Shown piece after piece: positions 17,200 through 32,304 of a stretch of 64,000 bases of DNA (positions within the stretch are counted from its first letter, which is position 1; the number at the start of each line of letters is the position of its first letter). The stretch lies in contig NZ_JRJG01000014.1 of assembly GCF_000759435.1 (NCBI RefSeq), forward strand, positions 1 to 64,000, read 5' to 3'. The translations under genes and the position numbers were made by a program. Under the pieces are notes generated by a model that was not told the DNA's origin, made no database searches, and saw only the letters and a list, made by a program, of their open reading frames with translations. This stretch comes from Hoeflea sp. BAL378 (lineage in GTDB: Bacteria; Pseudomonadota; Alphaproteobacteria; Rhizobiales; Rhizobiaceae).

Positions 17200-17211
17200 C
17201 GGAGGATAACC

Positions 17212-17649: not shown

Positions 17650-17702
17650 CGGGATCGACAGGGCCGGATTGAAGAGAACCTCGAACACCAGGGAGTCGTC
17701 GC

Positions 17703-18500
17703 ATGAACACAGACATGGTCTCGCTATCGGGGCAGCCGGTCCGCTTCAATGACAGGAGCGCCACCGCGCGGTTCGGGCTGATTGCGCTCGCCACCGACAT
17801 GACCAGCGAGCGCGACCTTTACCGGCAGCTTCCCGAGGCCAATGTCGCCATCCATGTCACCCGCGTGGCCTTCGAGAACCCGACGACGCCGGACAATCTG
17901 CGCCTGATGACGCCGCGGCTGAGCGAGGCGGCAGGCCTGCTCGCGCCGCTCAGCCCGCTCAAGGCGATCTGCTACAGTTGCACCGCGGCCTCCGTGGTCA
18001 TCGGCGACGCCGCGGTCACCGATGCGATCCAGCTCTCCGTCGGCCCGGTGCCGGTGGTCACGCCGGCCGGCGCCGCGCGCAGGGCGTTTTCGGCGCTGGG
18101 CGCGCGACGGATCGCGGTGCTGACGCCCTACACCATCGCCACCAGCCAGCCGATGGCCGAGTATTTCCTGGGCCACGGCCTGGAGATCACGAGCTTCGAC
18201 TGCCTCGGCCTCGAGGATGACCGCGACATGGCGCGGGTCAGCGACGCGACCATCATCGACGCGGCGCTCGCGGTCGACAGGCCCGACGCCGAGGCGCTGT
18301 TCCTCTCCTGCACCGGCCTGCCGGCGATCAATGTCATCGCCGAGATCGAGCGGCGCGCCGGCAAGCCGGTGGTCACCTCCAACCAGGCCAGCGCCTGGGC
18401 GATGGCGCGGCTGGCCGGTTTTGATGATCACCGGCCCGCAGCCTTCGGGCGGTTGTTCGACTGCGCGCTGCCCGCCGAGACGGTCGGGGAGGCGGCATGA
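17703..18500 (+). CDS. eutA: EutA, Asp/Glu racemase-like protein of hydroxyectoine catabolism
   Basis: A 265-residue protein of the aspartate/glutamate racemase and arylmalonate decarboxylase superfamily. The two expected cysteines are Cys93 (YSCTAASVVIG) and Cys203 (LSCTGLPAINVI). EutA, EutB and EutC are thought to convert 5-hydroxyectoine to ectoine; EutA may act as a racemase or epimerase. The ATG at 17703 follows GGGAG. The gene overlaps eutB by four bases (ATGA). Confidence 0.9.
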   Translation: MNTDMVSLSGQPVRFNDRSATARFGLIALATDMTSERDLYRQLPEANVAIHVTRVAFENPTTPDNLRLMTPRLSEAAGLLAPLSPLKAICYSCTAASVVIGDAAVTDAIQLSVGPVPVVTPAGAARRAFSALGARRIAVLTPYTIATSQPMAEYFLGHGLEITSFDCLGLEDDRDMARVSDATIIDAALAVDRPDAEALFLSCTGLPAINVIAEIERRAGKPVVTSNQASAWAMARLAGFDDHRPAAFGRLFDCALPAETVGEAA

Positions 18501-19501
18501 GCAGGACGGATCCCTTCGTCGGGCTTGACGAGATCGAGCAGGCGCGGGCCGCGATCGCCGGCACCGTGAGGGTGACGCCGGTTGCGGAGTCGCCGCAGCT
18601 CTCGGAGATGCTCGGCCAGCCGGTGCATCTCAAGCTCGAGCACACCCAGGTGACCGGCAGCTTCAAGCTGCGCGGCGCGAGCAATGCGGTGGCGAACCTG
18701 TCCGGGGAAGAATGCAGCCGCGGCGTCGTCGCCGCCTCGACCGGCAATCACGGCCGAGGCCTCGCCTATGCCGCCAGGGCCGCGGGCGCGCGGTGCATCA
18801 TCTGCATGTCGAAGCTGGTGCCCCAGGCCAAGATCGACGGCATCCGGGCGCAGGGCGCCGAGGTGCGCATCATCGGCCGGTCCCAGGACGAGGCGCAGGA
18901 GGAGGTCGACCGGCTGGTGTCCGAGGAAGGACTGACCATGATCCCGCCCTTCGACCACCGCGCCGTCATCGCCGGCCAGGGCACGCTCGGCCTCGAACTC
19001 CTCGAGCAGGTTCCCGATGTGGCGACCGTTTTGGTGCCGCTATCGGGCGGCGGGCTGATCTCCGGCGTCGCCGCCGCGCTCAAGGCGCGCCGCCCCGACA
19101 TAAGGGTGATCGGCGTCTCGATGGAGCGCGGGGCGGCGATGCATGAGTGTCTCAAGGCCGGCAGGCCGGTTCCTGTCGAAGAACTGGCGACGCTGGCGGA
19201 TTCGCTCGGCGGCGGTATCGGGCTCAACAACAGGCTCACCTTCGCCATGACCCGCGACCTGGTCGACGAGGTGGTGCTGGTGAGCGAGGCGGAGATCGCC
19301 CAGGCCATCCGCCACCTCTACTGGCAGGAGCGCCAGATCGTCGAGGGATCAGGCGCGGTCGGCGTCGCCGCCCTGCTTGCGGGCCGGATCACGAGCGCCG
19401 GTCCGGTCGTCTCCGTCCTCAGCGGCGGCAACATCGACATGACCCAGCACTTCCGCATCATCTCCGGCGAAGACGTCGACGTGACGAAAGAGGCGGCCTG
19501 A
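18497..19501 (+). CDS. eutB: EutB, threonine dehydratase-like PLP enzyme of hydroxyectoine catabolism
   Basis: A 334-residue fold-type II PLP enzyme with the lysine in TGSFKLRGASNA (Lys57), the SxGNHGRGLAYAA phosphate-contact loop, and the Gly-rich PLSGGGLISG segment. In the ectoine locus it is proposed to dehydrate hydroxyectoine-derived substrate, as threonine dehydratases eliminate water. It overlaps eutA by four bases and is followed one base later by eutC. Only the context separates it from a catabolic threonine dehydratase. Confidence 0.9.
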   Translation: MSRTDPFVGLDEIEQARAAIAGTVRVTPVAESPQLSEMLGQPVHLKLEHTQVTGSFKLRGASNAVANLSGEECSRGVVAASTGNHGRGLAYAARAAGARCIICMSKLVPQAKIDGIRAQGAEVRIIGRSQDEAQEEVDRLVSEEGLTMIPPFDHRAVIAGQGTLGLELLEQVPDVATVLVPLSGGGLISGVAAALKARRPDIRVIGVSMERGAAMHECLKAGRPVPVEELATLADSLGGGIGLNNRLTFAMTRDLVDEVVLVSEAEIAQAIRHLYWQERQIVEGSGAVGVAALLAGRITSAGPVVSVLSGGNIDMTQHFRIISGEDVDVTKEAA

Positions 19502-19502
19502 C

Positions 19503-20495
19503 ATGGCGAAGATCAGGATTCTGACAGAAGCAGATCTGCGCCGCGCGGTGGCGCTCGATCTCGACGCGATCGCCTGCGTCGAGGACGCCTTCGCGGCGCT
19601 CGCCACCGGCGATGTGGTGATGCCGCCGATTCTGTCGATGGCGATCAAGCCGTTCAACGGCGAGGTCGACGTCAAGACCGCCTTCGTCCCCGGCATCGAC
19701 AGTTTCGCCATCAAGATCTCGCCGGGCTTCTTCGACAATCCGAAGCTGGGCCTGCCCAGCACCTCGGGGCTGATGGTGCTGTTCTCGGCCAGGACCGGGA
19801 TGCTCGAGGCGCTGCTGCTCGACAATGGCTACCTCACCGATGTGCGCACGGCGGCCGCCGGCGCGGTGGCCGCCCGCCATCTCGCCCGCGCAGATGCGTC
19901 GAGCGCCTGCATCCTGGGCGCGGGCTGCCAGGCCCGGCTGCAGCTCAAGGCGTTGAGCCTGGTGCGTCCGCTCGAGCGCGCCACCATCTGGGCGCGCGAC
20001 GCCGACAAGGCCGCGGCCGCCGCCACCGAGATGACCGGCGACCTCGGCATCGAGGTGCGCGTGGCAGACGATCTGGCGGCAGCCGTGACTGAAGCCGACA
20101 TCATCGTCACCACCACGCCCGCGACCAGCCCGGTGCTGCGTGCCGAGTGGCTGAGGCCCGGTCAGCACATCACCGCCATGGGATCGGACCAGGAGCACAA
20201 GAACGAGATCGACCCGGCCTGCGTCGCGCGCGCCGATCCCTATGTCCCCGACAGGCTGTCGCAGACGAGGCTGCTCGGCGAACTGCGGGCGGCGATCGCC
20301 AGCGGCGCGGTTTCGGCCGAAACCCGCTTCGCCGAGCTCGGCGACATCGTCGCCGGCAAGGCCAACGGCCGCATCTCCGACGAGGCCATCACGTTAGCCG
20401 ACCTGACCGGCACCGGCGTCCAGGACACCGCAATCGCGACCTTCGCGCTCGGCCGCGCCTTCATGCTCGGCGCCGGCGCCGACTTCGCCAACTGA
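19503..20495 (+). CDS. eutC: EutC, ornithine cyclodeaminase-like protein of hydroxyectoine catabolism
   Basis: A 330-residue member of the ornithine cyclodeaminase/mu-crystallin family with a Rossmann NAD-binding site at CILGAGCQARLQLKALS (about residue 140) and the family segment TAAAGAVAARHLA before it. It probably provides the reductive step that, with EutA and EutB, yields ectoine from hydroxyectoine; this is inferred from the operon. The ATG at 19503 is one base after the eutB stop. Confidence 0.9.
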   Translation: MAKIRILTEADLRRAVALDLDAIACVEDAFAALATGDVVMPPILSMAIKPFNGEVDVKTAFVPGIDSFAIKISPGFFDNPKLGLPSTSGLMVLFSARTGMLEALLLDNGYLTDVRTAAAGAVAARHLARADASSACILGAGCQARLQLKALSLVRPLERATIWARDADKAAAAATEMTGDLGIEVRVADDLAAAVTEADIIVTTTPATSPVLRAEWLRPGQHITAMGSDQEHKNEIDPACVARADPYVPDRLSQTRLLGELRAAIASGAVSAETRFAELGDIVAGKANGRISDEAITLADLTGTGVQDTAIATFALGRAFMLGAGADFAN

Positions 20496-20525
20496 TCCCA
20501 TACCCAGAAAGGAAGACCTTCCCCG

Positions 20526-21713
20526 ATGCCCGCGCCAGTCCTCAATTTCAGCCGCGACGAATATGCCGGTCGCCTCGCCAAGACGCGCAAGGCCATGGAG
20601 GAAGCCGGGGTCGATGTCATCATCGTCTCGGATCCGTCCAACATGGCCTGGCTCACCGGCTATGACGGCTGGTCGTTCTATGTCCATCAATGCGTGGTGG
20701 TGGGCCCCGACGGCGATCCGGTCTGGTTCGGCCGCGGCCAGGACGCCAATGGCGCGCGGCGGACCTGCTATCTCGCCGAGGACCGCATCATCGGCTATCC
20801 CGACCATTACGTTCAGTCGGCGGTGCGCCATCCGATGGACTATCTCTCGGGCAAGCTCGAGGAACGCGGCTGGGCTGGCAAGCGCATCGGCGTCGAGATG
20901 GACAATTACTGGTTCTCGGCCGCAGCCTTCGCCTCGCTGCAGAAGCACCTGCCGAACGCGAAGTTTTCCGACGTCACTGCGCTGGTCAACTGGCAGCGCG
21001 CCGTCAAGTCGGCCCAGGAGCTCGACTACATGCGCAAGGCCGCCCGCCTGGTCGAACGCATGCACAAGACCATCACGGATAAATGCGAGGTCGGCTACCG
21101 CAAATGCGATCTCGTCGCCGACATCTACGAGGCGGCGCTGCGCTATGACGACGGGCTCGGCTTCGGCGGCGACTATCCGGCGATCGTGCCGCTGCTGCCC
21201 TCGGGCCCGGACGCCTCGGCGCCGCACCTGACCTGGGACGACCAGCCGATGAAATCGGGCGAGGGCACCTTCTTCGAGATCGCCGGCGTCTACAAGCGCT
21301 ACCACTGCCCGCTGTCGCGCACCCTGTTCCTGGGCAAGCCGACCGAAACCTTCATCGAAGCCGAGAAGGCCGTGCTCGAGGGCATGGAGGCGGGGCTCGA
21401 AGCCGCCAAGGCCGGCAACCTGTGCGAGGACATCGCGCACGCCTTCTTCAAGGTTCTGAACAAATACGGGATCACCAAGGACAACCGCACCGGCTACCCG
21501 ATCGGCATTTCCTATCCGCCGGACTGGGGCGAGCGCACCATGTCGCTGAGGCCCGGCGACAAGACCGTGCTCGAGGAGAACATGACCTTCCACTTCATGA
21601 CCGGGCTGTGGATGGACGACTGGGGCTTCGAGATCACCGAAAGCATCGTCATCGGCAAGACCGGACCGGAGTGCCTCGCCAATGTGCCCCGCCGGCTGTT
21701 CGTGAAGGACTAA
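20526..21713 (+). CDS. eutD: EutD/DoeA, ectoine hydrolase
   Basis: A 395-residue M24 (pita-bread) protein with a creatinase-like N-terminal domain (about 1-165) and a C-terminal hydrolase domain. It should open the ectoine ring to N-alpha-acetyl-L-2,4-diaminobutyrate, the metabolite that also induces EnuR. In the region where M24 peptidases bind metal, the sequence has GTFFEIAG and MTFHFMTGLW rather than a full set of Asp/His/Glu ligands, which is consistent with the non-peptidase creatinase branch. A GAAAGGAAGA site precedes the ATG at 20526. Confidence 0.93.
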   Translation: MPAPVLNFSRDEYAGRLAKTRKAMEEAGVDVIIVSDPSNMAWLTGYDGWSFYVHQCVVVGPDGDPVWFGRGQDANGARRTCYLAEDRIIGYPDHYVQSAVRHPMDYLSGKLEERGWAGKRIGVEMDNYWFSAAAFASLQKHLPNAKFSDVTALVNWQRAVKSAQELDYMRKAARLVERMHKTITDKCEVGYRKCDLVADIYEAALRYDDGLGFGGDYPAIVPLLPSGPDASAPHLTWDDQPMKSGEGTFFEIAGVYKRYHCPLSRTLFLGKPTETFIEAEKAVLEGMEAGLEAAKAGNLCEDIAHAFFKVLNKYGITKDNRTGYPIGISYPPDWGERTMSLRPGDKTVLEENMTFHFMTGLWMDDWGFEITESIVIGKTGPECLANVPRRLFVKD

Positions 21714-21720
21714 GTGCAAC

Positions 21721-22710
21721 ATGCCCGCCAACCCGATCGTACCCACCATTCCGCTGCACGAGGACGGCGCCCATCACGGCTTCCTGAGGCTGCCCTACAG
21801 CCGCGACGATTCCGCCTGGGGCTCGGTGATGATCCCGATCACGGTGATCAAGAACGGCGTCGGCCCGACGGCGCTGCTCACCGGCGCCAATCACGGCGAC
21901 GAATATGAAGGCCCCATCGCGCTGATGGAGCTTTCGGTGACGCTCAGGCCCGAGGACATCGAGGGTCGCGTGATCATCGTGCCGGCGATGAACTATCCGG
22001 CCTTCCGCGCCGGCACCCGCACCTCGCCGATCGACCGGGGCAACATGAACCGATCCTTCCCGGGCTCGCCGAGCGGCACGGTGACGGAGAAGATCGCCGA
22101 TTATTTCCAGACCGTGCTGCTGCCGGAGGCGAGCATCGTGCTCGATTTCCATTCGGGCGGCCGGACGCTGGATTTCATTCCCTTCGCCTCCGCCCATGTG
22201 CTCGAAAACAAGGAGCAGCAGGCAGCCTGCGTCGCCGCGGTGGAAGCCTTCAACGCACCCTACTCGATGATCATGCTCGAGATCGACACGGTCGGCATGT
22301 ACGACACCAGCGTAGAGGACCAGGGCAAGGTCTTCGTCACCACCGAGCTCGGCGGCGGCGGCACCTCGACGGCGCGCTCGAACGCGATCGCCAAGAAGGG
22401 CGTGCGCAACGTCTTGAAGCATGCCGGCATCCTGAAGGGCGAGCTCGAGACCGGGCCGTCGGTGATGCTCGACATGCCCGACGACGACTGCTTCGTGTTC
22501 GGCCGGGACGACGGCCTGTTCGAATCGATGAAGAACCTCGGCGATCCGGTCGAGAAGGGCGAGATCATCGCCCGGGTCTGGCCGCTCGACCGCACCGGCC
22601 GGCCGCCGATCGACTACCGCGCCAACCGGTCGGGCATCCTGGTGTCGCGCCATTGCCCCGGCCTGGTCAAGTCGGGCGACTGCATGGCGGTGGTCGCGGT
22701 CACGGTCTGA
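21721..22710 (+). CDS. eutE: EutE/DoeB, N-alpha-acetyl-diaminobutyrate deacetylase
   Basis: A 329-residue zinc hydrolase of the succinylglutamate desuccinylase/aspartoacylase family. Zinc ligands are visible in ANHGDEYEGP (His and Glu) and DFHSGG (His), and the N-R-FPG motif is NMNRSFPG. It should deacetylate the product of EutD to L-2,4-diaminobutyrate. It begins 7 bases after eutD and ends the plus-strand operon before a strong terminator. Confidence 0.93.
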   Translation: MPANPIVPTIPLHEDGAHHGFLRLPYSRDDSAWGSVMIPITVIKNGVGPTALLTGANHGDEYEGPIALMELSVTLRPEDIEGRVIIVPAMNYPAFRAGTRTSPIDRGNMNRSFPGSPSGTVTEKIADYFQTVLLPEASIVLDFHSGGRTLDFIPFASAHVLENKEQQAACVAAVEAFNAPYSMIMLEIDTVGMYDTSVEDQGKVFVTTELGGGGTSTARSNAIAKKGVRNVLKHAGILKGELETGPSVMLDMPDDDCFVFGRDDGLFESMKNLGDPVEKGEIIARVWPLDRTGRPPIDYRANRSGILVSRHCPGLVKSGDCMAVVAVTV

Positions 22711-22761: not shown

Positions 22762-22844
22762 GCCGTGACCGGTCGGCAGGATCGATCCGCCGATCCGCGG
22801 CGTCGGTGCTGTGGGCGAAGCGTGAGGACGCTCTTGCAAATTGA

Positions 22845-22866
22845 AACATGAATCAGTATTCATGTT
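22845..22866 (+). promoter_or_regulatory. TetR operator 1, overlapping the tetR promoter
   Basis: AACATGAAT-CAGT-ATTCATGTT is a palindrome with perfect 9-bp arms. It lies between a TTGCAA (22834-22839) and the tetR ATG (22869), covering a possible -10 TATTCA (22857-22862). A near-identical element lies at 32096-32115 before the oppositely oriented transporter operon. Autoregulation of the TetR gene is inferred. Confidence 0.75.
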
Positions 22867-22868
22867 GA

Positions 22869-23459
22869 ATGTCGACCAATGCTTACCCGAGAACCAAGAG
22901 AGGCGTCGCCCGTCGCGAGCAGATCCTGCGCGCCGCGGAAGCGATGATCGGGGCGCAGGGCTTCTCCGCGGCCTCGATCGCCGACATCACCCGCCATGCG
23001 AAGACGGCGCTCGGAACCTTCTACATCTATTTTTCCGGCAAGGAAGACGTGTTCCGCGAGCTGGTCCTGGAGATGGGGCAACTGACCCGCGCCGTCATCA
23101 CCAAGGCGGTGGCCGGCGCGCCGAACCGGCTCGAAGCCGAGCGCGCCGGGCTCAAGGCGTTCCTGCAATTCGTCATCGAGCGGCCGTCGCTTTACCGCAT
23201 CGTGGAAGAAGCCCGCTTCATCGACGCCGACGCCTACAAGGCCTATTTCACCAGCTTCGCCCGGGCCTATGCCGCGCAATTGAGCGAAGCCGCCGCGGCG
23301 GGCGAGCTCAGGCCCGGCGACGCCGAGGTCCGCGCCTGGGCGCTGATGGGCATCGCCAAGACTTTGGGCGAGCGCTACGTGCTGTGGGACGACACTTCCG
23401 ACATCGACCACGTGGTCGACGAGGCCTTCTCGATGATAAGGGACGGTCTGGCGCCATGA
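22869..23459 (+). CDS. TetR/AcrR-family transcriptional regulator
   Basis: A 196-residue regulator with an N-terminal helix-turn-helix (RREQILRAAEAMIGAQGFSAASIADITRHAKTALGTFYIYFSGKEDVF, residues about 16-60) and an all-helical ligand domain. The ATG at 22869 is three bases after operator 1 and has no ribosome site, so the message may be leaderless. The stop overlaps the crotonase start (ATGA). The matching operator before the ABC operon suggests that it represses both arms and is released by the transported acid or its CoA thioester. The ligand is unknown. Confidence 0.88.
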   Translation: MSTNAYPRTKRGVARREQILRAAEAMIGAQGFSAASIADITRHAKTALGTFYIYFSGKEDVFRELVLEMGQLTRAVITKAVAGAPNRLEAERAGLKAFLQFVIERPSLYRIVEEARFIDADAYKAYFTSFARAYAAQLSEAAAAGELRPGDAEVRAWALMGIAKTLGERYVLWDDTSDIDHVVDEAFSMIRDGLAP

Positions 23460-24238
23460 CAGGGCTTGTGAGGGCGGAGATGACCGGCCTGCCCGACGGC
23501 GGAACCTGCGCCCGGTTGACCATGCGCGCGCCCCGCGCCAATGCGCTGGAGCCGGGACTGCTCGCCGACCTCGCCCGCGCGCTCGACGACGCCGAAGCAG
23601 CCGACGCCAAGGTGATCCTGCTCTGCGGCGGGCCGAATTTCTCGAGCGGCGGCGATGTCCGCGCCTTCCAGGCGGCATGCCTGAGCGGCGAGGCCACGGC
23701 CTATGCAGCCGAGGTGGTGCCGGCGCTGCAGGCGCTCGTCCTCCGCCTGATCGCCATGAAGCGGCTTGTCGTGGTGGCGGCGCGCGGGGCGATCACCGGC
23801 GGATCGGCCGGGCTGCTGTTTGCGGCCGACCTCGCGGTGCTGGCGCCCGACGCCTTTGTGCAGCCCTATTATTCCCGGGTCGGATTTGCGCCCGATGGCG
23901 GCTGGACCGCGCTGCTGCCCGAGCGCATCGGCGCCGGCCGCGCGCTCGAATGGCTGCAGTCGGACCGGCGGCTGTCGGCGGAAGGCCTGCGCGCCATGAG
24001 CCTGGCGACCGCCGTCTCGGACACGCCGGAGGCGGACGCGGAGGCTCTCGCATCGCACGGCGCGCTCGGCGTGCGTCTCGCCGCCAAGGCGCTGATCTGG
24101 GATGAGGCGCGCCGGGAAAGCATCCATGCGCGGCTCGAGGCAGAAACCGCTTCCTTCCTCGACCGGATCGCGCGCCCCGAAACGCTGCGCGGCATGGAGC
24201 GGTTTCTCGTGGGCCTGGGAGGCAGGAGCGATGTTTGA
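23456..24238 (+). CDS. Enoyl-CoA hydratase/isomerase family protein (crotonase)
   Basis: A 260-residue crotonase-fold protein. The oxyanion-hole region is FSSGGDVRAF (about residues 62-71), and the second conserved block is RGAITGGSAGLLFAADLAV. The active-site segment reads YSRVGFAPDGGWTALLPERIG, with Asp where hydratases often have the second Glu, so isomerase, lyase or other crotonase chemistry is possible. It overlaps tetR by four bases and the ligase gene by eight, so the set is translated as a unit. It acts on a CoA thioester; the substrate is unknown. Confidence 0.85.
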   Translation: MTGLVRAEMTGLPDGGTCARLTMRAPRANALEPGLLADLARALDDAEAADAKVILLCGGPNFSSGGDVRAFQAACLSGEATAYAAEVVPALQALVLRLIAMKRLVVVAARGAITGGSAGLLFAADLAVLAPDAFVQPYYSRVGFAPDGGWTALLPERIGAGRALEWLQSDRRLSAEGLRAMSLATAVSDTPEADAEALASHGALGVRLAAKALIWDEARRESIHARLEAETASFLDRIARPETLRGMERFLVGLGGRSDV

Positions 24239-25715
24239 CGACATTCCGGACATGGCGGCCAAGCGCGCCGAGATATCGCCCGACAGCGTAGCCTTCGTCG
24301 ATGCGGAGAGCGGCCGGCAGTGGCGCTTCGACGAGATAGACCGGGCCGCCAACGGCGTCGCCGCCGGTCTCAAGAAAGCCGGCCTGGGCGAGGGCGACCG
24401 GCTGGCGATGCTCTGCCTCAACCGCGTCGAATTCTTCGTCACGCTGTTTGCCTGCCAGAAGACCGGCATCATCCTCTGCCCGCTCAACTGGCGCCAGCCG
24501 GCGCCGGAACTGGTGGAAACGCTGGAGCCCGTGGGCGCCGGCGCGCTGATCCACGACGCGACCCATGCGAGGCTCGCCGCCGACGTGGCGCAGGCCTGCG
24601 CGCTGCCGCTTTTCGGCATGGAAACCGATCTGGCGGGATGGATCGCGGCCCCGGCCCCCGCGATCGCCGCAGACGTTCCCGCCACGAGGCCCTGGTACCT
24701 CCTGTTCACCTCGGGCACGACGGGCCGGCCCAAAGCCGTGATCCAGACCGCGCGGATGGCCTGGGCCAATGCGGTGAACATCTCCCAGGCGACGCGGATG
24801 ACCGGCGACGACCGTTCGGTCAATTTCCTGCCGCTGTTTCACACCGCAGGCATCAATCTCTACACATTGCCGCTGTTCCTGATGGGCGGATGCTCGACGG
24901 TGCTGCCGAAATTCGAGCCGGGCCAGATCTTCGATCTTCTCAGGCAGGGCCGGATCAGCCAGTTCTTCGGCGTCCCGGCGATCTACCAGGCCTTCAGCCT
25001 GCTCCCAGACGTGGGCGAAATCGACTGGAGCACGGTGCGGTGCGGCTGCGGCGGCGCGCCTTTGCCCGAGCCGCTGATCCGTTTCTTCGCCGGCCACGGC
25101 GCCAAGGTCTTGAACGGCTTCGGCATGACCGAGACCGGGCCGACCGTGTTCCTGATGGATCCGGACAATGCCGAGACCAGGATCGGCTCCGTCGGCCGGG
25201 CGCAGATGCTGACCCAAATGCGGCTCGACGGCGTCGCCGCCGGCGAGCCCGGCGCGGGCGAGATCCAGCTCAAGGGCCCCAACATCACGCCGGGCTATTA
25301 CCGCAATGACAAGGCCACGCGCGAGGCCTTCACCGACGACGGCTGGCTGAGGACCGGCGATGTCGGCCGCCGCGACCCCGACGGCTACATCTTCATCATC
25401 GACCGGATCAAGGACATGTATATTTCCGGCGGCGAGAACGTCTACCCGGCCGAGGTCGAGCGGGTGCTCAACGAACATGCCGACGTGCTTGAGGCCGCCG
25501 TCATCAGCATGCCCGACACGCGATGGGGCGAGGTCGGCGCGGCCTTCATCATCGCCCGGCCCGGCGCCAGCCTCGATCCCGAGGAACTGCGGCGCTGGAG
25601 CCGGGAACGGATGGCCGCCTACAAGGTGCCCGTCCGGGTGACGCTGGTCGAGGACCTGCCGCGCACCGCGGCGGGCAAGGTGCGCAAACCCGACCTGAGG
25701 AGCCTGCTGCCATGA
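24231..25715 (+). CDS. Acyl-CoA ligase (AMP-forming)
   Basis: A 494-residue ANL-superfamily enzyme with P-loop TSGTTGRPKAV (about residues 162-172), A5-type motif GFGMTETGP, GDVGRRDPDGY and the C-terminal catalytic lysine in RTAAGKVRK. It should activate a carboxylic acid to its CoA ester. The start at 24231 overlaps the crotonase gene by eight bases; the frame upstream is open but does not fit the family. It is distinct from the 561-residue FadD at 52868. Substrates could be an aromatic, alicyclic or branched acid; the sequence alone does not decide. Confidence 0.87.
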   Translation: MFDDIPDMAAKRAEISPDSVAFVDAESGRQWRFDEIDRAANGVAAGLKKAGLGEGDRLAMLCLNRVEFFVTLFACQKTGIILCPLNWRQPAPELVETLEPVGAGALIHDATHARLAADVAQACALPLFGMETDLAGWIAAPAPAIAADVPATRPWYLLFTSGTTGRPKAVIQTARMAWANAVNISQATRMTGDDRSVNFLPLFHTAGINLYTLPLFLMGGCSTVLPKFEPGQIFDLLRQGRISQFFGVPAIYQAFSLLPDVGEIDWSTVRCGCGGAPLPEPLIRFFAGHGAKVLNGFGMTETGPTVFLMDPDNAETRIGSVGRAQMLTQMRLDGVAAGEPGAGEIQLKGPNITPGYYRNDKATREAFTDDGWLRTGDVGRRDPDGYIFIIDRIKDMYISGGENVYPAEVERVLNEHADVLEAAVISMPDTRWGEVGAAFIIARPGASLDPEELRRWSRERMAAYKVPVRVTLVEDLPRTAAGKVRKPDLRSLLP

Positions 25716-26068
25716 TCATCGATCTGTCCTCCGCCTGGACGCCGACCCAGGCGGAATTCGACCTGTTTGCTAGGATTTCGGGCGACGACAACCCGATCCA
25801 TGTCGATCCGGCGTTTTCGGCCCGGACCGCCTTCGGCCGCACGGTGAGCCACGGCATGCTGATCTACACGAAATTGTGGGGCATGCTCACCGCCGCCCAT
25901 CCCGAAATCACCCAGGTGAGCCAGACGATGATGTTTCCCAATCCCTGCTACACCGGGGAGCAGGTCGAGCTCACCGTCAGCGGCGTGTGCCCGGGGACGC
26001 TCACGGTGCGGGCGCTGAGGGCCGAGGACGGGGCGGAGCTGCTGGTCGGCGAAACGGAGGTGGCGTGA
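25712..26068 (+). CDS. MaoC-like hydratase subunit with intact catalytic motif
   Basis: A 118-residue single hotdog domain. The hydratase-2 motif G-D-x-N-P-x-H is present as SGDDNPIH (catalytic Asp25 and His30), followed by FGRTVSHGML. It should add water to a 2-enoyl-CoA with R stereochemistry. Its start overlaps the ligase stop (ATGA) and its stop overlaps the next gene. The neighbour is another 118-residue hotdog protein without the motif, so the two probably form a heteromeric hydratase. Confidence 0.85.
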   Translation: MIIDLSSAWTPTQAEFDLFARISGDDNPIHVDPAFSARTAFGRTVSHGMLIYTKLWGMLTAAHPEITQVSQTMMFPNPCYTGEQVELTVSGVCPGTLTVRALRAEDGAELLVGETEVA

Positions 26069-26424
26069 TGGAACTCGGACAGGCGGCGGAAACAAGCCGC
26101 AGCTACAGCCGCGCGGATCTCGAAGGCTTCGCGTCACTCGGCGGGTCCGCGGTTCCCGCCACCGTGCCCGAACCGCTGATCGCGGCGCTGTTTTCCTACC
26201 TGCTCGGCGTCCACCTGCCGGGTCCGGGCACCAATTACCTCAAGCAGGACCTGAAGTTCCTCGCCAAGGCCGCCCCGGACACGGAACTGACCGCCAGGGT
26301 CGAGATCACCCGGCTTCGCCCCGACAAGCACCTGGTCGATCTCTGGGCCACCTGCACCGACGCCAGGGGCGTGCTGATCTGCGAGGGCCGGTCACTGGTC
26401 AAGGCGAAGGACGTGACGGCATAA
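26068..26424 (+). CDS. MaoC-like hotdog protein lacking the hydratase motif (partner subunit)
   Basis: A 118-residue protein whose central part (PGPGTNYLKQDLKFLAKAAPDTELTARVEI) matches the hotdog pattern of R-specific hydratases. The Gly-Asp-x-Asn-Pro-x-His motif is absent: the equivalent stretch reads SLGGSAVPATVPEPLIAA. It overlaps the active MaoC gene by one base. Split pairs of one catalytic and one structural hotdog subunit are known, for example in actinobacterial steroid side-chain degradation. A thioesterase role is an alternative. Confidence 0.78.
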   Translation: MELGQAAETSRSYSRADLEGFASLGGSAVPATVPEPLIAALFSYLLGVHLPGPGTNYLKQDLKFLAKAAPDTELTARVEITRLRPDKHLVDLWATCTDARGVLICEGRSLVKAKDVTA

Positions 26425-26457
26425 TTATATATGCCTGAACGGGATTGGCCGCGCCGG

Positions 26458-27219
26458 TCAGAGGCTGCCGGCGAACTCCACCAACCGGTCGGCAAAGGCC
26501 TGCGGCTCTTCCAGATGCGGCGAATGGCCTGACTCCGCGAAGACATGCATCTCGCCGCGCGAGGCCGTGGCTGCCAGCCATTGGGCGGCCGAGGCCGGAT
26601 AGACCCGGCTCCGGGCGCCACAGGCGGCGAGGAGCGGGCATCCGATCCGCCCGATCAGCGGCCTGTAGTCCATGGCGGTCATCGCCTGCCACATGGCGAT
26701 CATCCGCTCAGGGTCATTCGCCAGTATCTGCTCAAGCGCCGCCTGCCGGCTGTAACCGGCAGCACCCTCGCGACTGCCGAACATGGTGGTGGCGATCGCC
26801 TCGCTCATGCCGCGCCAGTCGGCGATCATCCGCTCGGTGGTGGCGGCGAGATCGGCCTCGCTTTGCCCGATCAGCCCATGCGGCCAGTCGGGCCCGGAGC
26901 CGAGCTTCGGGCTCATGTCCACCGTCACCAGGCCCGCGATCCTGTCCGCGCCGAACTCGGCGAGGAACCGCCAGGCCACCGCGGCGCCCATCGACCAGCC
27001 GACCAGCAGCACGTCGTCGAGATCATGGGTCTCGATGAGATCGGCCACCGATTGCGCGCACGCTGCCAGCGACGGCTCCCGGTCGGCGAGGGCGCCGTGG
27101 CCTGGAAGGTCCGGCGCGTGGCACACGAGCGAGGCGGGCAGCCGGGCGATGAGATCGTCGAAGATCGCGCCGCGCATGGTCCAGCCATGCAGCAGCACCA
27201 GCGGGCGCGGCCGGGGCAT
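26458..27219 (-). CDS. Alpha/beta hydrolase
   Basis: A 253-residue hydrolase from the ATG at 27219; a GTG at 27231, two bases after the livM stop, is an equally plausible start and would add four residues. The HGW oxyanion motif is LLHGWTM, the nucleophile elbow is GWSMG (Ser within VLLVGWSMGAA), and the catalytic His is in ESGHSPHLEEP. The fold resembles BioH-like carboxylesterases. It is the last gene of the transporter operon, so it may release the transported acid from an ester or cleave a CoA thioester or ring product. The physiological substrate is unknown. Confidence 0.82.
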   Translation of the reverse strand: MPRPRPLVLLHGWTMRGAIFDDLIARLPASLVCHAPDLPGHGALADREPSLAACAQSVADLIETHDLDDVLLVGWSMGAAVAWRFLAEFGADRIAGLVTVDMSPKLGSGPDWPHGLIGQSEADLAATTERMIADWRGMSEAIATTMFGSREGAAGYSRQAALEQILANDPERMIAMWQAMTAMDYRPLIGRIGCPLLAACGARSRVYPASAAQWLAATASRGEMHVFAESGHSPHLEEPQAFADRLVEFAGSL

Positions 27220-27233
27220 GTCCAGCGCCACCC

Positions 27234-28298
27234 TCAATCCCCGGACCTGAGCCGTCCGACAATGCCGGTGGGGAAGAAATAGACGCTCAGGATGAACAGC
27301 ACGCCGAGCCACAACAGCCAGCGGTCGGGATCGAGCAACTGCGGGATCAGCGGCAAGCCTTCGGTGGCGCCCGAGGCCATGCCCATCAGGTTCTGCAGAT
27401 AGTTCTGCGCCAGCACGAACAGCGTCGCGCCGATCACCGCGCCATACATCGTGCCCATGCCGCCGATCACCACCATCAGGAGGATGTCGAGCATGATCTC
27501 GAAGGACAGCGTCGTGTCGGGCCCGACATAGCGCAGCCAGATGGCGAACAGGCTGCCCGCAAGTGCTGCCACCGCCGCCGACAGGCAGGTGGCGAGCGTC
27601 CGGTAGAACACCACCCGGTAGCCGATGGCCTCCGCGCGGAAATCATTCTCGCGGATCGCCTGCAGCACCCGCCCGAAGGGCGAGTTCACCACCCGGAGCA
27701 GGAGCAGGAACAGCAGGAGCGAGGCGAAGAAGACGAGATAGTAGTTGAGGATCTTGCCGGAGATGTTGACCCCGAACAGTTCCCCGAGCTTGAAGGCCGG
27801 GGTGAGCTCGCGCGGGATCTGGTAATTGAGCCCGTCCTCGCCGCCGGTCAGCCCCGAGAGCTGGCTTACCAGCACCGCCACGGCGGAGGCGACGGCGAGC
27901 GTGATCATCGCGAAGAAGATCGCCCGGACGCGGAGCGAGAACAGCCCGATCATCAGCGCCAGCACGGCCGCGGCCGCGGCGCCGGCGAGCGTGCCGACGA
28001 GGAGCGCATCGTAGCCGCGCCCCATATGGGTCGAGGCCAGCGCCACCCCATAGGCGCCGAGGCCGAAGAACATGGTGTGGGCGAAGCTGACGATGCCGGA
28101 ATAGCCCAGGAGAAGGTCGTAGCTCGCCACCAGCACGATGAAGATGCATATCCGCGCCGCCGTCTCGAGCGAGCGCACGCCCGGAAACAGGAACGGCGCG
28201 AAGGCGAGCCCAATGAGGATGGCCAGTAGGACGATCGTAAGGATCAGCGAGCGTGGACGGTCGCCCGACAGGGTCCGGTTGAGGAATTGTGCCGCCAT
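27234..28298 (-). CDS. LivM-type permease of a branched-chain-type ABC transporter
   Basis: A 354-residue inner-membrane permease with about nine to ten helices. The family coupling region is RENDFRAEAIGYRV near residue 215, preceded by NSPFGRVLQAI, and GGMGTMYGAVIGA follows near residue 280. It begins one base after the livH-type gene. The HAAT transporter family carries branched-chain amino acids but also urea, amides and aromatic or alicyclic acids. Here the neighbours (acyl-CoA ligase, hydratases) favour an organic acid. Confidence 0.88.
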   Translation of the reverse strand: MAAQFLNRTLSGDRPRSLILTIVLLAILIGLAFAPFLFPGVRSLETAARICIFIVLVASYDLLLGYSGIVSFAHTMFFGLGAYGVALASTHMGRGYDALLVGTLAGAAAAAVLALMIGLFSLRVRAIFFAMITLAVASAVAVLVSQLSGLTGGEDGLNYQIPRELTPAFKLGELFGVNISGKILNYYLVFFASLLLFLLLLRVVNSPFGRVLQAIRENDFRAEAIGYRVVFYRTLATCLSAAVAALAGSLFAIWLRYVGPDTTLSFEIMLDILLMVVIGGMGTMYGAVIGATLFVLAQNYLQNLMGMASGATEGLPLIPQLLDPDRWLLWLGVLFILSVYFFPTGIVGRLRSGD

Positions 28299-28299
28299 C

Positions 28300-29331
28300 T
28301 TACTTCGCCTTCACGACTGGCATCATGCCCTGCGGCCGCCACATCAGGATGGCGGTCATCAGCGCGATGTTGGAAATCAGCGCCAGCTTGGGTTCGAGGA
28401 ACGCCACGTAGTTCTGCAGCAGTCCGACAAGAAGCGCGCCGATGAAGGCGCCCTCGACCGAGCCGAGCCCGCCGATGATGACGACGATGAACACCAGGAT
28501 CATCATCTCCTCGCCCATGCCGGCGGTGATCACCTCCTGGTAGAGCCCCCACATCACGCCGCCCAGCCCGGCAAGCGCGGAGCCCGCGACGAACACCCCG
28601 ATGAAGACGAGCTTCAGCCGGTAGCCGAGCGCCTCGACCATCTCGCCGTTCTGCACGCCGGCGCGGACGATCAGCCCGATCTTGGTGCGCTTGAGCACCA
28701 GCCGCATCGCCACGAACAGGGCGAGGCCGAAGACCACGGCGAGCAGCCGGTATTTCTCGATCGCGGCCCCCGCGAAGGTCACCGCGCCCTTGAGCATCTC
28801 CGGCCGGGTAAGGAAGATCTCGTCGGGTCCCCAGACCACCTGGATCAGCTGCTCGATGACGATGAGGCCGCCGACGGTGACCAGGATCTGCTTCAAATGC
28901 GCGCCATAGACCGGGCGCACGATCACCCGCTCGAAGCCCCAGCCGAGGAGGCCGGTGACGCACATGGCGGCGACCACCGCGGCGAGCACCGCCGCCACGT
29001 TGAGCACCAGCGAAGGAGCGCCGGTCCAGCCCTCGAGCGCCAGCAGTGCCGAGATGCCGACATAGGCGCCCACCGAGATGAAGGCGCCGTGGCCGAAATT
29101 GATCACGTCCATCAGCCCGAACACCAAGGTCAACCCCGAGGCCATGATGAAGATCATCATCCCCATGGCCAGCCCCGAGACGGTGAGCGTGAGCCAGCTC
29201 GAGGTCGATCCGATCGACAGGAAGCCCAGCACCACCAGGATCGGCACCAGCAGCAGCGGCATCATCTTGCCGATCGACTGGGTCATGGACAGGGCCGAGA
29301 TCTTGGGCGCGTGCCCGGGTGCTGCGGTCAT
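28300..29331 (-). CDS. LivH-type permease of a branched-chain-type ABC transporter
   Basis: A 343-residue permease with the LivH pattern: FGLMDVINFGHGAFISVGAYVG near the N-terminus and GGLGSVEGAFIGALLVGLLQN near residue 285. About eight helices are visible. The first 20 residues (MTAAPGHAPKISALSMTQSI) are soluble, and an internal ATG start at MTQSIGKMM is possible. It is one base from both neighbours, livF and livM. Confidence 0.88.
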   Translation of the reverse strand: MTAAPGHAPKISALSMTQSIGKMMPLLLVPILVVLGFLSIGSTSSWLTLTVSGLAMGMMIFIMASGLTLVFGLMDVINFGHGAFISVGAYVGISALLALEGWTGAPSLVLNVAAVLAAVVAAMCVTGLLGWGFERVIVRPVYGAHLKQILVTVGGLIVIEQLIQVVWGPDEIFLTRPEMLKGAVTFAGAAIEKYRLLAVVFGLALFVAMRLVLKRTKIGLIVRAGVQNGEMVEALGYRLKLVFIGVFVAGSALAGLGGVMWGLYQEVITAGMGEEMMILVFIVVIIGGLGSVEGAFIGALLVGLLQNYVAFLEPKLALISNIALMTAILMWRPQGMMPVVKAK

Positions 29332-29332
29332 C

Positions 29333-30055
29333 TCAGTGCGCCTCCATGCTCAGGCCCATCAGCCGTTCCTGCAGCGCCGCGTCGCCGGCGAGTTCGGCCA
29401 TCGTTCCGGCCCAGACGATGCGGCCGTCATCCATCACCGCCGCCGTGTCGCCGAGCGCTTTGGCCACGGCGAAATTCTGTTCCACCAGCAGGATCGACGC
29501 GCCCCTGGTCTTGAGGTCGCGCAGCGCGCCGGCCATGGTCGAGACGATCGCCGGCGCCAGGCCCTTGGTCGGCTCGTCGATCAAATAGAGCTGACGCTCC
29601 TCGGCCATGACGCGGGCGATCGACAGCATCTGCTTCTGCCCGCCCGACAGGTTGCCGGCTTCCGACTTCCAGAAAGTCCTGAGCGGCGGGAAGGCGGAAA
29701 AGATCCACTCGAGCCGCGCTTGCTCGAGCGGGCCGGAGGCCGCGGCCAGCACCATGTTCTCCTCGACCGTGAGGTCGGAGAAGATGCCCATGTCCTCGGG
29801 CACGAAGCCGATCCCCAGGCGCGCGCGCGCCGGCGTCGGCATGGCGGTGATGTGCGTGCCGTTGAAGCGGAGGCTGCCCGATTTCGCCTGCCAGTGGCCG
29901 ATGATGGTGCGCAGCGTCGTGGTCTTGCCGACGCCGTTGCGGCCCAAAAGCATGGTCACGCCGCCGCGCGGCACGACCAGGTCGACGCCCTGCAGGATGT
30001 GGTACTGGGCGATGTCGGTGTGGACGCCGGAGAGTTCGAGGATCGGATCAGACAT
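29333..30055 (-). CDS. LivF-type ATPase of a branched-chain-type ABC transporter
   Basis: A 240-residue ATPase with Walker A GRNGVGKTT (about 38-46), signature NLSGGQKQMLS (about 138), Walker B LYLIDEPTKGLAP and switch His replaced by VEQNFAVA, which is normal for LivF. The start overlaps the livG stop by eight bases. It pairs with LivG to drive import. Confidence 0.9.
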   Translation of the reverse strand: MSDPILELSGVHTDIAQYHILQGVDLVVPRGGVTMLLGRNGVGKTTTLRTIIGHWQAKSGSLRFNGTHITAMPTPARARLGIGFVPEDMGIFSDLTVEENMVLAAASGPLEQARLEWIFSAFPPLRTFWKSEAGNLSGGQKQMLSIARVMAEERQLYLIDEPTKGLAPAIVSTMAGALRDLKTRGASILLVEQNFAVAKALGDTAAVMDDGRIVWAGTMAELAGDAALQERLMGLSMEAH

Positions 30056-30812
30056 CGGCCAGGTCCCGTCCCATATAGGCTTCCTGCACCACGTCCGAGG
30101 CCATCACCGTGGCCGGGTCGCCGTCGGCGGCGAGCGCGCCGTTGTGCAGCACGATGATGCGGTCGGCGAGCGAGCGGATCACGTCCATCTTGTGTTCGAC
30201 CAGCAGGATGGTGCGGTCGGTGTCGGCCTTGAGCTCGGCGATCAGGTCGAGCACCACCGGCGCCTCGTCGACGCTCATGCCGGCGGTCGGCTCGTCGAAC
30301 ATGTAGACCACCGGATCGAGCGCGATCAGGATGGCGACCTCGAGCTTGCGCTGGTTGCCGTGGCTGAGCGCGCCGACCTTCTGGTCGCGCAGGGGCTCAA
30401 GCCGCACCCGCTCCAGCACCGCCATTGCCGCGACCGTGAGCTCGGTATGCGCGCTCGCCATGGAGAAAAGATTGAAGCCCATGCGGCGACGCGCCTGGAT
30501 CACCAGCCGCACATTCTCGAGCACGGTGAGATCTGGAAACAGGTTGGTCAACTGAAAGGCGCGCCCCAGGCCCTTGCGGCAGCGCACCGCCACCGGGTCG
30601 CGCGTCACATCCTCGCCCATCAGCCGGACGCTGCCGGCGGAAGCGGTGACCTGTCCGGAGATGAGATTGAAATAGGTTGTCTTGCCGGCGCCGTTGGGAC
30701 CGACGATCGCGGTCAGCTCTCCGGCCCGGAAGCTGCAGGTGACGGCATCGACCGCCACATGGCCGCCGAAGCGGACGGTCAGGCTGTCCGTTTCCAGAAG
30801 CGTCTGTGTCAT
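30048..30812 (-). CDS. LivG-type ATPase of a branched-chain-type ABC transporter
   Basis: A 254-residue ATPase with Walker A GPNGAGKTT (about 38-46), the LivG-type signature LSHGNQRKLE, Walker B VYMFDEPTAGMS and the VEHKMD switch motif. LivG-specific insertions such as RCRKGLGRAFQLTNLFPDLTV are present. It lies 66 bases after the binding-protein gene and overlaps livF. Confidence 0.9.
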   Translation of the reverse strand: MTQTLLETDSLTVRFGGHVAVDAVTCSFRAGELTAIVGPNGAGKTTYFNLISGQVTASAGSVRLMGEDVTRDPVAVRCRKGLGRAFQLTNLFPDLTVLENVRLVIQARRRMGFNLFSMASAHTELTVAAMAVLERVRLEPLRDQKVGALSHGNQRKLEVAILIALDPVVYMFDEPTAGMSVDEAPVVLDLIAELKADTDRTILLVEHKMDVIRSLADRIIVLHNGALAADGDPATVMASDVVQEAYMGRDLADV

Positions 30813-30878
30813 GGCGCACCCATCGGAAGAAGAAGATGCCGCGGGCGCGCCATAGCGGGCGCCCGCGGTTTTCGGGCC

Positions 30879-32054
30879 TCAGTTGCGGACCGGGATGTCC
30901 ATGTCGTCGATGCCGATCTCGCGCACCAGCACCGGGACGCCGTAGTCCTTGCCGTCCTGCACCTCGGTGCGGAAGTGATACATCGCCTGCAGCGCCTGGT
31001 GGTCTTCCTTGCGGAAGCGCATCGTGCCCTTGGGCGTTTCCCACTCCATGCCTTCCATTGCCGAGATCAGCGCCTCGGTGTCGGTGGAGCCTGCCTTCTT
31101 GATCGCCTCGACCACGGCGATGCCGGCCGCCATGCCGCCGGCGGTGAAGAAGTCCGGCGGCGAGCCGAAGCGGGCCATGTGCTCCTTGACCAGCCAGTCG
31201 TTGACCGGGTTCTTCGGGATCTCGTAGTAGTAATAGGTGGCGCCTTCCATGCCCGGAAGTTCCTTGTAGGCCGTCAGCGCCGCCAGGATGTTGCCGCCGG
31301 TGGCGATCTCGATGCCGAAGCGCTTGGGATCCATGGCGTTGATCTTGCCCATCGGATTGCCGCCGCCGGCCCAGATGATGAACAGCTTCTTCTTGCCTTC
31401 GACGCCCTCCATGGCGTTGAAGATGCGCTCCGCCGCGGCGGTGAAGTCGGTGGTGTCGGTGGGCACGTATTCCTCGTGCGCGATCTTGGCGCCGGTGGGG
31501 GCGAGCGCCTCGCGGAAGGCGGCGACGCCGTCGCGGCCGAAGGCGTAGTCCTGCGCCAGCGTGGCGATGGTCACGCCTTCGCCGCCCAGGGCCACGGCGT
31601 TGGAGATGGCGTCCTGCGAGGAATTGCGGCCGGTGCGGAAGATGTAGCGGTTCCAGTCCGCGCCGGTGATCGAGTCGGCCACGGCCGGCTCGACGACGAG
31701 GATCTTCTCGTATTCCTGGGCGACCGGCAGCATCGCCAGGGCGACGCCCGAGCTGACCGGCCCGACGGCGATGTCGGCCTCGTCGTCGCCATAGGCTTCG
31801 GCGAGCACAGCCTTGCCGATGTCGGGCTTGAGCTGGGTGTCCTTCTCGATGACGACGATCTTCTCGCCGTTGATCTCCATGGTGCCGTCGGTAGCGTATT
31901 CGAGGCCGAGCATCAGCCCGGCATGCGACTGCGCCGCATAGGCCTCGAGCGCGCCGGTCTTGCCGTAGACATGCGCAATCTTGATGTCGGCGAGCGCCGG
32001 GACCGTCAGCAGCACGGCTGCGGCGCCGCTTGCCAGTAGCGTTCTCATCTTCAT
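30879..32054 (-). CDS. Type I periplasmic binding protein of the TetR-linked ABC transporter
   Basis: A 391-residue LivK-like receptor with a signal peptide (MKMRTLLASGAAAVLLTVPALA) and a mature start DIKIAHVYGKTGALEAYAAQ. I chose the ATG at 32054 because GGAGGAG stands six bases before it. The upstream in-frame start would put a soluble leader before the signal sequence. The mature protein is aromatic-compound-receptor-like in overall layout, but the ligand cannot be read from sequence. It is first in the minus-strand operon, 42 bases downstream of TetR operator 2. Confidence 0.88.
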   Translation of the reverse strand: MKMRTLLASGAAAVLLTVPALADIKIAHVYGKTGALEAYAAQSHAGLMLGLEYATDGTMEINGEKIVVIEKDTQLKPDIGKAVLAEAYGDDEADIAVGPVSSGVALAMLPVAQEYEKILVVEPAVADSITGADWNRYIFRTGRNSSQDAISNAVALGGEGVTIATLAQDYAFGRDGVAAFREALAPTGAKIAHEEYVPTDTTDFTAAAERIFNAMEGVEGKKKLFIIWAGGGNPMGKINAMDPKRFGIEIATGGNILAALTAYKELPGMEGATYYYYEIPKNPVNDWLVKEHMARFGSPPDFFTAGGMAAGIAVVEAIKKAGSTDTEALISAMEGMEWETPKGTMRFRKEDHQALQAMYHFRTEVQDGKDYGVPVLVREIGIDDMDIPVRN

Positions 32055-32095
32055 TTGGGTCTCCTCCCCTGAGCGAACAATGGTGAAAACATGAA

Positions 32096-32115
32096 ACATG
32101 AATCAATATTCATGT
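32096..32115 (-). promoter_or_regulatory. TetR operator 2, in the promoter of the ABC transporter operon
   Basis: ACATGAAT-CAAT-ATTCATGT is a palindrome with 8-bp arms. With flanking bases it matches operator 1 at 22 of 24 positions. On the minus strand a TTGACA (32118-32113) begins at its edge, so the palindrome occupies the promoter spacer, as expected for repression. The interval from 32116 to 32304 shows no gene. Confidence 0.75.
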
Positions 32116-32304
32116 CAAGGTTCAACCGAAGCCGCGAACGCCGTGCGACAGGGCGCGGGAGGGGACTGGGCCGAAGGCGGGAAGGGCGTGGGCCGGGGTC
32201 CGGGCACACGGGCGCGGGGCAGTCCGCCGCTCGCCTGGCGCTGCTGCGGATGCAGTGCTGCGGAGCCCGGATGGCCGCCGGATCCCCCGGCGATGCGCCG
32301 CGGC

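Follow-up and report, generated by a model that had tools for sequence, protein, structure and literature searches.

In the 3-methylbenzoate system of Azoarcus sp. CIB, the CoA ester made by the ligase is the inducer for the TetR repressor MbdR (PMC4424350). For FadRSa of Sulfolobus acidocaldarius, four CoA-contacting residues have been named (R73, K77, R86, and R132), two of which, R73 and R86, were tested by mutation and are needed for the ligand response; M101 is allosteric, and some operators are bound by one dimer and another by two, the second dimer on one side (PMC6449355). Many solute-binding proteins of Rhodopseudomonas palustris bind fatty and dicarboxylic acids, and five bound aromatic acids (PMC3223731). 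The locus described here lies in a 64,000-nucleotide stretch of Hoeflea sp. BAL378 (contig NZ_JRJG01000014.1, positions 1 to 64,000; the whole stretch is called the window) and joins a tetR gene and an acyl-CoA ligase to an ATP-binding cassette (ABC) transporter. Our sequence analysis points to a repressor dedicated to this locus, which is probably released by the CoA ester from the cluster's own ligase, so that uptake and activation are induced together.

The palindromic pattern AACATGAAT-N4-ATTCATGTT is found exactly at 22845-22866 (operator 1, in front of tetR) and with one mismatch at 32095-32116 (operator 2, in front of the binding-protein gene of the transporter), and these two matches in the window compare with 0 in 100 shuffles. 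The near-identical pair of the original prediction was recovered in place: 22843-22866 and 32093-32116 are identical at 22 of 24 positions, or at 23 of 26 with two more bases. When the organism's own 5.48-Mb genome (281 contigs) was searched with up to three mismatches, the two operators were the only matches; the pattern read backwards, used as the control, gave 1 match per strand. Operator 1 ends 2 bp before the start codon of tetR and has TTGCAA upstream; at operator 2, a minus-strand TTGACA (32118-32113) runs over the edge of the palindrome.

With the TetR protein as the query, 80 loci from named genomes and 10 stretches from relatives were collected, and 83 loci were left after 7 of the 90 had been taken out as duplicates (L033, L034, and L037-L041); near-identical species remain among them (e.g., two Hoeflea alexandrii and two Celeribacter baekdonensis), and the loci are not independent. 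A binding-protein gene is present in 73 of them, which show three gene orders: 32 are convergent as in the window, 20 are tandem, with tetR next after the transporter arm in the same direction (e.g., in Ruegeria, Leisingera, Thalassovita, and Celeribacter), and 21 are divergent (e.g., in Phreatobacter, Hyphomicrobium, and Bradyrhizobium). The other 10 have no binding-protein gene inside the locus, several of them because the contig ends. Every gene head was given an operator score, the largest number of half-site letters (of 14) in AACATGAN8TCATGTT matched anywhere from −160 to +15 bases around the start. The threshold was 12, which random 175-base windows of the loci reach in 74 of 6968 cases, true sites included. 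Both heads score at least 12 in 28 of the 33 convergent loci (the window included). In the tandem class, 19 of 20 binding-protein heads but none of the 20 tetR heads do so, which would fit transcription of tetR from the upstream promoter. One shared site of at least 12 is seen from both genes in 19 of 21 divergent loci (in L118 from one side only), and the tetR head reaches the threshold in 9 of the 10 loci without a binding-protein gene. In these sequences, the operators follow the putative promoters across rearranged gene orders.

Among the heads that score at least 12, 28 of the 39 at tetR (convergent type or split) keep a TTG box near the place of TTGCAA, and TTGAC overlaps the operator in 34 of the 50 at the binding-protein gene (convergent and tandem). 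The distance from operator to start is 2 to 4 bp in 24 of the 39 tetR heads (starts extrapolated from tblastn), and with the operator so close to the start codon and behind a TTG box, the tetR mRNA is likely leaderless. A later set of twelve stretches fetched via the binding protein plus one plasmid locus added four loci with a site at each head (L187, L188, L189, and L190, of which L188 and L190 come from the same genomes as L089 and L086, respectively), one with a site at the binding protein and tetR outside the stretch (L184), and the plasmid locus with one site before tetR (L173).

Searches with the window's own proteins (tblastn with identity limits, by which distant forms may be missed) recovered the ligase in 32/32 convergent, 20/20 tandem, and 20/21 divergent loci. 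The corresponding numbers are 26/32, 20/20, and 5/21 for the crotonase; 32/32, 20/20, and 6/21 for MaoC1; and 30/32, 20/20, and 11/21 for the alpha/beta hydrolase. By these counts, the constant core consists of regulator, ligase, and transporter; conservation of the gene set, which had been proposed as a check, thus holds for this core, and the full enzyme set is not essential, given the few divergent loci with crotonase or MaoC1. In the divergent class, a penicillin-amidase family gene stands convergent to the ligase at L105:12132-14576, L107:12135-14582, and L101:12146-14491 (minus strand), identified by PF01804 in L105 and L107 and by reading in L101. No site of at least 11/14 lies in front of it in L105 and L107, and in L101 the upstream DNA is cut off; these genes are not claimed as regulon members, although acyl-amide cleavage could supply the acid.

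The operator is also rare elsewhere in the genomes searched. With up to two mismatches, 77 sites were found in 49 genomes (a set that does not include L087 and L118), compared with 0 for the reversed pattern. Nineteen of the 27 convergent genomes have two sites, 3 have three, and 5 have one; 17 of the 19 tandem genomes have one site, 1 has two, and 1 has none; and the three genomes whose fetched locus has no binding-protein gene have two sites each. The two arms are unlinked in Oceanicola granulosus: TetR, ligase, and MaoC are on one contig and the transporter on another, both far from the contig ends, and exactly two sites were found, one per arm. In the window's genus (18 genomes, own included), all 8 genomes with a TetR ortholog have 2 to 3 sites and 9 of the 10 without it have none, the exception being a 75%-complete genome with one. 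Outside the genus, the ortholog-bearing G021, G053, and G055 have 2, 1, and 0 sites, the divergent class having a changed motif, and 2 of 40 other genomes have one two-mismatch site. A divergent-class pattern gave one site in each of 13 genomes, a result that is partly circular because the pattern was built from those loci. Own-genome rarity, promoter tracking, the unlinked arms of O. granulosus, and co-occurrence in the genus support the original prediction of a self-contained TetR regulon with two operators that joins uptake to CoA activation.

Some further sites were noted. In two Hoeflea genomes, a third operator copy (NZ_CP011480.1 74853-74874, equal to L158:14854-14875, and G010:C2:69253-69274) precedes a second, divergent LIV-type ABC transporter (IMCC20628_RS23125-RS23145), and the regulon may be larger there. 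An extra one-mismatch site in Thalassorhabdomicrobium marinisediminis (L155:2007-2028; G073:C19:283006-283027) lies ~58 bp before what by reading appears to be a TRAP transporter operon.

The regulator belongs to the TetR family (PF00440, 48.1 bits; cutoff, 24), and its AlphaFold model is all-helical with a mean pLDDT of 91.6. Among Foldseek's top 1000 chains, FadRSa (6en8) has the best-matching fold (Z score, 24.9; root mean square deviation, 1.5 over 188 residues); the next family follows at a Z score of 20.2, and from there on come Bacillus FadR proteins, FasR, and Rv0078 and, lower, MbdR, AibR, EthR2, and QacR. FadRSa is also the nearest PDB sequence, with 60 of 171 aligned residues identical, and the score for the Bacillus-type FadR equivalog NF053878 (36.9 bits) is below its cutoff of 200. 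R74 and R87, the counterparts of R73 and R86 in FadRSa, are invariant in 42 of 42 homologues; the probability that two random aligned positions are both FadRSa-identical and invariant is 0.013. Because these arginines contact CoA in FadRSa, the effector is more probably a CoA ester than the free acid, between which the original prediction had left the choice.

Several observations weigh against a dedicated repressor that answers to a CoA ester. Five convergent genomes have a single site and one tandem genome has none. Binding-protein heads stay below 12 in L062 (11), L096 (11), L094 (11), and L113, and tetR heads outside the tandem class do so in L058 (11), L092 (10), L103 (7), L113, and L118; the tetR head of L112, counted among the convergent misses, is cut off. 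In the later set, L185 has a site at the binding protein and none of at least 12 at tetR, L186 has one near tetR and none of at least 12 at the binding protein, and L191, a divergent locus with the full gene set, has no site of at least 12. The transporter also occurs without TetR, ligase, and operator in the 20 kb read of L180-L183 (guessed to be Bradyrhizobium/Rhodopseudomonas-like), so that transporter and regulator are not inseparable. A sigma-70 scan found no full −35/−10 pair and no consensus −10 at either operator, so that the promoter labels rest on the boxes kept in relatives. In the regulator, K77 and R132 of FadRSa, two of the four CoA-contacting residues, and M101 are not conserved. 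That the palindromes are coincidental, or a motif of a widespread global regulator, is nevertheless extremely improbable on the sequence evidence. A few single extra sites would fit such a view (G073, near the TRAP operon, G092, G018, and G029, the last two without a TetR ortholog), but in the genus the sites are found together with the TetR ortholog, and the same heads carry them in rearranged loci. A chance palindrome was rejected on these grounds together with the shuffles, the own-genome rarity, and the reversed control; a general motif, present at many unrelated promoters, was rejected by the 77 sites in 49 genomes with few single extras and by the empty reversed control.

A TetR protein that senses the free cytoplasmic acid or another small molecule is easier to imagine, since many TetR regulators sense free small molecules and K77, R132, and M101 of FadRSa are not kept. 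We consider it unlikely, as R74 and R87 are invariant here and absent from L014 and L016, the two of five 30%-identical paralogues that aligned cleanly (the other three aligned poorly), and as FadR or FasR proteins fill 8 of the first 11 rows of the fold comparison, the drug-binding EthR2 and QacR being among the lower rows. Another possibility, to which we give somewhat more weight while still doubting it, keeps the two-operator regulon and the CoA ester effector and takes the substrate to be a carboxylic acid with an aromatic or alicyclic ring, on the pattern of MbdR or the R. palustris benzoate transporter. In its favor, the nearest solved relative of the ligase is named feruloyl-CoA synthetase, MbdR acts with 3-methylbenzoyl-CoA as inducer on ABC transporter and CoA ligase operons (PMC4424350), and aromatic acids were bound by the five R. 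palustris proteins (PMC3223731). However, no ring-attacking enzyme is recognizable in the conserved set, and the fold is nearer to the fatty-acyl-CoA regulator FadRSa than to MbdR (Z scores, 24.9 and 18.9). The binding protein, moreover, is distant from 4ey3, which we take to be an aromatic-acid binder (100 bits compared with 572 for 3n0x).

The structure 3n0x, to which the binding protein is 69% identical, comes from R. palustris, as does 3nnd, which was matched as well. In openly licensed PMC papers, no relevant mention of 3n0x or 3nnd as a route to the substrate was found, nor any of the R. palustris locus tags looked for, and tags that begin with RPA43 or RPA44 are absent from the main text of PMC3223731. 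At L181:7039-9123 (genome guessed to be Bradyrhizobium-like), the same transporter follows a FadX-like CoA-transferase (412 bits, under the model cutoff of 750) instead of TetR and ligase. Since L180-L183, taken to be of the Bradyrhizobium/Rhodopseudomonas lineage, have the transporter only, ligand data from that lineage are not simply transferable. By analogy with relatives and from the enzyme types, a fatty or hydroxylated fatty acid is somewhat favored over an aromatic acid as the substrate, because of the regulator's kinship, the presence of a predicted (R)-hydratase and a probable isomerase without a dehydrogenase, the CoA-transferase at L181, and the fatty and dicarboxylic acid-binding proteins of R. 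palustris; the kinship of the ligase to feruloyl-CoA synthetase keeps the aromatic acid in consideration.

The enzymes fit CoA activation, as originally predicted, but the crotonase is probably not a hydratase. It has G119 in 57/57 rows and Y139 in 55/57 (F in 2) where 3kqf has glutamates (2 of 58 loci, L051 and L067, with a stop in the aligned range, were left out), and D147 in 57/57 rows; an aspartate at this position is typical of PaaG-type isomerases. With both catalytic glutamates missing, a second hydratase was rejected, and the crotonase is probably an isomerase. The predicted R-type hydratase is present as two genes. MaoC1 has the motif G-D-x-N-x-x-H in 66/66 rows and MaoC2 in 0/66, although the AlphaFold model of MaoC2 (pLDDT, 96.1) matches the fold of PhaJ 1iq6 (Z score, 17.7), with rows for ChsH1-ChsH2 and HadAB too. 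Given the motif in one protein, its absence from the other, and the same fold in both, the simplest reading is that the two proteins pair into one heterodimeric (R)-hydratase of which a single half is active. The nearest solved relatives of the ligase include 8wev (the feruloyl-CoA synthetase; best) and FadD13 3r44. In agreement with the original prediction, no acyl-CoA dehydrogenase or thiolase is found among the cluster genes; a complete pathway inside the cluster, as in the pim type with all beta-oxidation enzymes, was thus rejected.

In our model of a CoA ester-responsive repressor, the FadR-like protein would shut two promoters, its own (probably leaderless) and that of the transporter, by sitting on the palindrome at each. 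Transporter made at a basal level would let in some of the acid when it is available, and the ligase would convert this to the CoA ester. The ester would then bind the repressor, with its CoA moiety held by the two conserved arginines. The repressor would leave both operators, uptake and activation would be induced together, and the MaoC1/MaoC2 pair and the isomerase-type crotonase would pass the CoA ester to ordinary beta-oxidation presumably encoded elsewhere.

The operators may allow a finer grading of control. An extra half-site, offset by 7 bp, lengthens the palindrome on one side. In convergent and tandem binding-protein heads, it is a TCA immediately after the operator (41 of 50), and in tetR and divergent heads it is a TGA ahead of the operator (26 of 39 and 15 of 20, respectively); both sides at once carry it in 0 binding-protein heads and 5 of 39 tetR heads. 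Of the binding-protein heads, 32/50 keep the longer TCAT/ATGA, compared with 11/39 of the tetR heads. A half-site limited to the transporter head was rejected, as TGA occurs on the other side of the operator at the tetR heads. By analogy, two-dimer, one-sided binding like that of FadRSa is a fair guess, and at operator 2 the extra half-site may also serve as a −10 element that the sigma-70 scan does not recognize. It is conceivable, if unlikely, that the regulon serves to scavenge (R)-3-hydroxy acids, which could be released from lipid A, acyl-homoserine lactones, polyhydroxyalkanoates, or surfactants. Once such an acid had been joined to CoA, the MaoC heterodimer would dehydrate the (R)-3-hydroxyacyl-CoA to 2-enoyl-CoA, which would enter ordinary beta-oxidation, so that the cluster would need no dehydrogenase or thiolase. 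Two repressor dimers would sit side by side at the transporter promoter via the extra half-site; at the leaderless tetR promoter, where it is on the other side and weaker, control would be looser, and uptake would be closed more tightly than activation. The TGA at the tetR heads slightly lowers our estimate of this scheme.

The features of the locus are collected in Table 1. The gene calls hold, with the refinements that the MaoC part consists of two 118-amino-acid (aa) genes and that the binding-protein start is most likely at 32054, behind GGGGAGGAG. The plus-strand arm (tetR, crotonase, CoA ligase, MaoC1, MaoC2) overlaps by a few bases from gene to gene. The minus-strand arm runs from the binding protein through LivG, LivF, LivH, and LivM to the alpha/beta hydrolase, which has BioH- and PcaD-like NCBIfam matches, both under the cutoff. 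The two arms run toward each other, as predicted, with stop codons at 26424 and 26458. The transporter has the make-up of a LIV/HAAT-type ABC transporter, i.e., Peripla_BP_6, two BPD_transp_2 permeases, and two ATPases, with four of the five parts identified by family search and LivF by open reading frame (ORF) and homology.

Table 1. Predicted features of the TetR-ligase-transporter locus
Feature	Position	Strand	Basis
TTGCAA, −35-like box of tetR promoter	22834..22839	+	Sequence; TTG box in relatives
Operator 1, AACATGAATCAGTATTCATGTT	22845..22866	none	Pattern match in window and own genome
tetR, predicted FadR-like TetR-family repressor, 196 aa	22869..23459	+	PF00440; FadRSa best in PDB
Crotonase-fold protein, probably isomerase, not hydratase	23456..24238	+	PF00378; G119, Y139, D147
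Acyl-CoA ligase (AMP-binding), 494 aa	24231..25715	+	PF00501 and PF13193
MaoC1, predicted active half of (R)-specific enoyl-CoA hydratase, 118 aa	25712..26068	+	PF01575; PhaJ 1iq6 best in PDB
MaoC2, hot-dog half without catalytic motif, 118 aa	26068..26424	+	AlphaFold model; no Pfam match
Alpha/beta hydrolase, 257 aa, last gene of transporter arm	26458..27231	-	PF12697
LivM-like permease	27234..28298	-	PF02653
LivH-like permease	28300..29331	-	PF02653
LivF-like ATPase	29333..30055	-	ORF and conserved order; homology to relatives, outside family search
LivG-like ATPase	30048..30812	-	PF00005
Periplasmic binding protein, 391 aa, first gene of transporter arm	30879..32054	-	PF13458; 3n0x, 3nnd
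Extra half-site TTTCATG, 7 bp offset from operator 2	32090..32096	-	TCA kept in relatives
Operator 2, AACATGAATCAATATTCATGTC	32095..32116	none	Pattern match
TTGACA, −35-like box over operator 2 edge	32113..32118	-	Sequence; TTGAC in relatives

Upstream, at 15916-22710, lies an ectoine/hydroxyectoine catabolic set that ends ~135 bp before operator 1 and comprises a TRAP-like permease and a stress protein (both by reading), followed by EutA (under the cutoff), EutB, EutC, DoeA, and DoeB. MaoC2 orthologues on two plasmid records (L158:8403-8759 and L172:15202-15561) are annotated as "phosphate acetyltransferase", a label perhaps carried over from a two-domain hydratase/phosphate acetyltransferase family that is matched weakly. 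tetR or a homologue (35 to 92% identity) is found on 10 plasmid records, including NZ_CP011480.1, NZ_CP029209.1, NZ_CP042263.1, and NZ_AP022338.1; one of these records is a 154-kb Hoeflea plasmid with transposase genes nearby, which suggests mobility.

A widespread set of genes with vague or wrong annotations ("branched-chain amino acid" transporter, "phosphate acetyltransferase", and "enoyl-CoA hydratase"), found in many alphaproteobacteria, thereby gains a shared regulator, an operator with a defined sequence, and a regulatory logic that can be tested. The cargo of these LIV-type transporters is suggested to be an acid destined for conversion to its CoA ester and not an amino acid. Together with the unlinked arms of O. 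granulosus, the three gene orders provide a natural test of whether operators follow promoters. If the effector is indeed a CoA ester, the two operators could be put to use in an acyl-CoA sensor for alphaproteobacteria.

The original prediction could not match this combination to a described pathway, and we found no description of the regulon, by title or start of the abstract, in openly licensed PMC papers. MaoC1 and MaoC2 are both PhaJ-like, and ChsH1-ChsH2 and HadAB, which have a single active half, are heterodimers as predicted here, but no steroid or mycolate genes were recognized beside the MaoC pair. The pim operon of R. palustris and its neighboring ABC transporter likewise have solute-binding proteins beside a fatty/dicarboxylic acyl-CoA ligase; pimFABCDE, however, reportedly encodes all enzymes of beta-oxidation (PMC3223731), and the cluster described here has no acyl-CoA dehydrogenase or thiolase. 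FadRSa (6en8 and 6el2) resembles the regulator in sequence, in fold (among the 1000 chains), in the two CoA-binding arginines, in its few genomic sites, and in operators with one-sided room for a second dimer, but it represses lipases and beta-oxidation genes, whereas here a transporter, a ligase, and auxiliary enzymes would be controlled (PMC6449355). In kind, the locus is closest to MbdR, a TetR repressor with palindromes at three places: its own gene, the promoter of a transporter and CoA ligase operon, and an extra ligase promoter. The MbdR operator is ATACN10GTAT instead of AACATGAN8TCATGTT, the mbd cluster also carries the central degradation pathway (PMC4424350), and the regulator is 17% identical in the fold alignment. 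Hence, the general kind of TetR, ABC transporter, and CoA ligase system and its regulatory logic are already known from MbdR, whereas the sequence, the operator, and the enzyme set of the Hoeflea locus differ.

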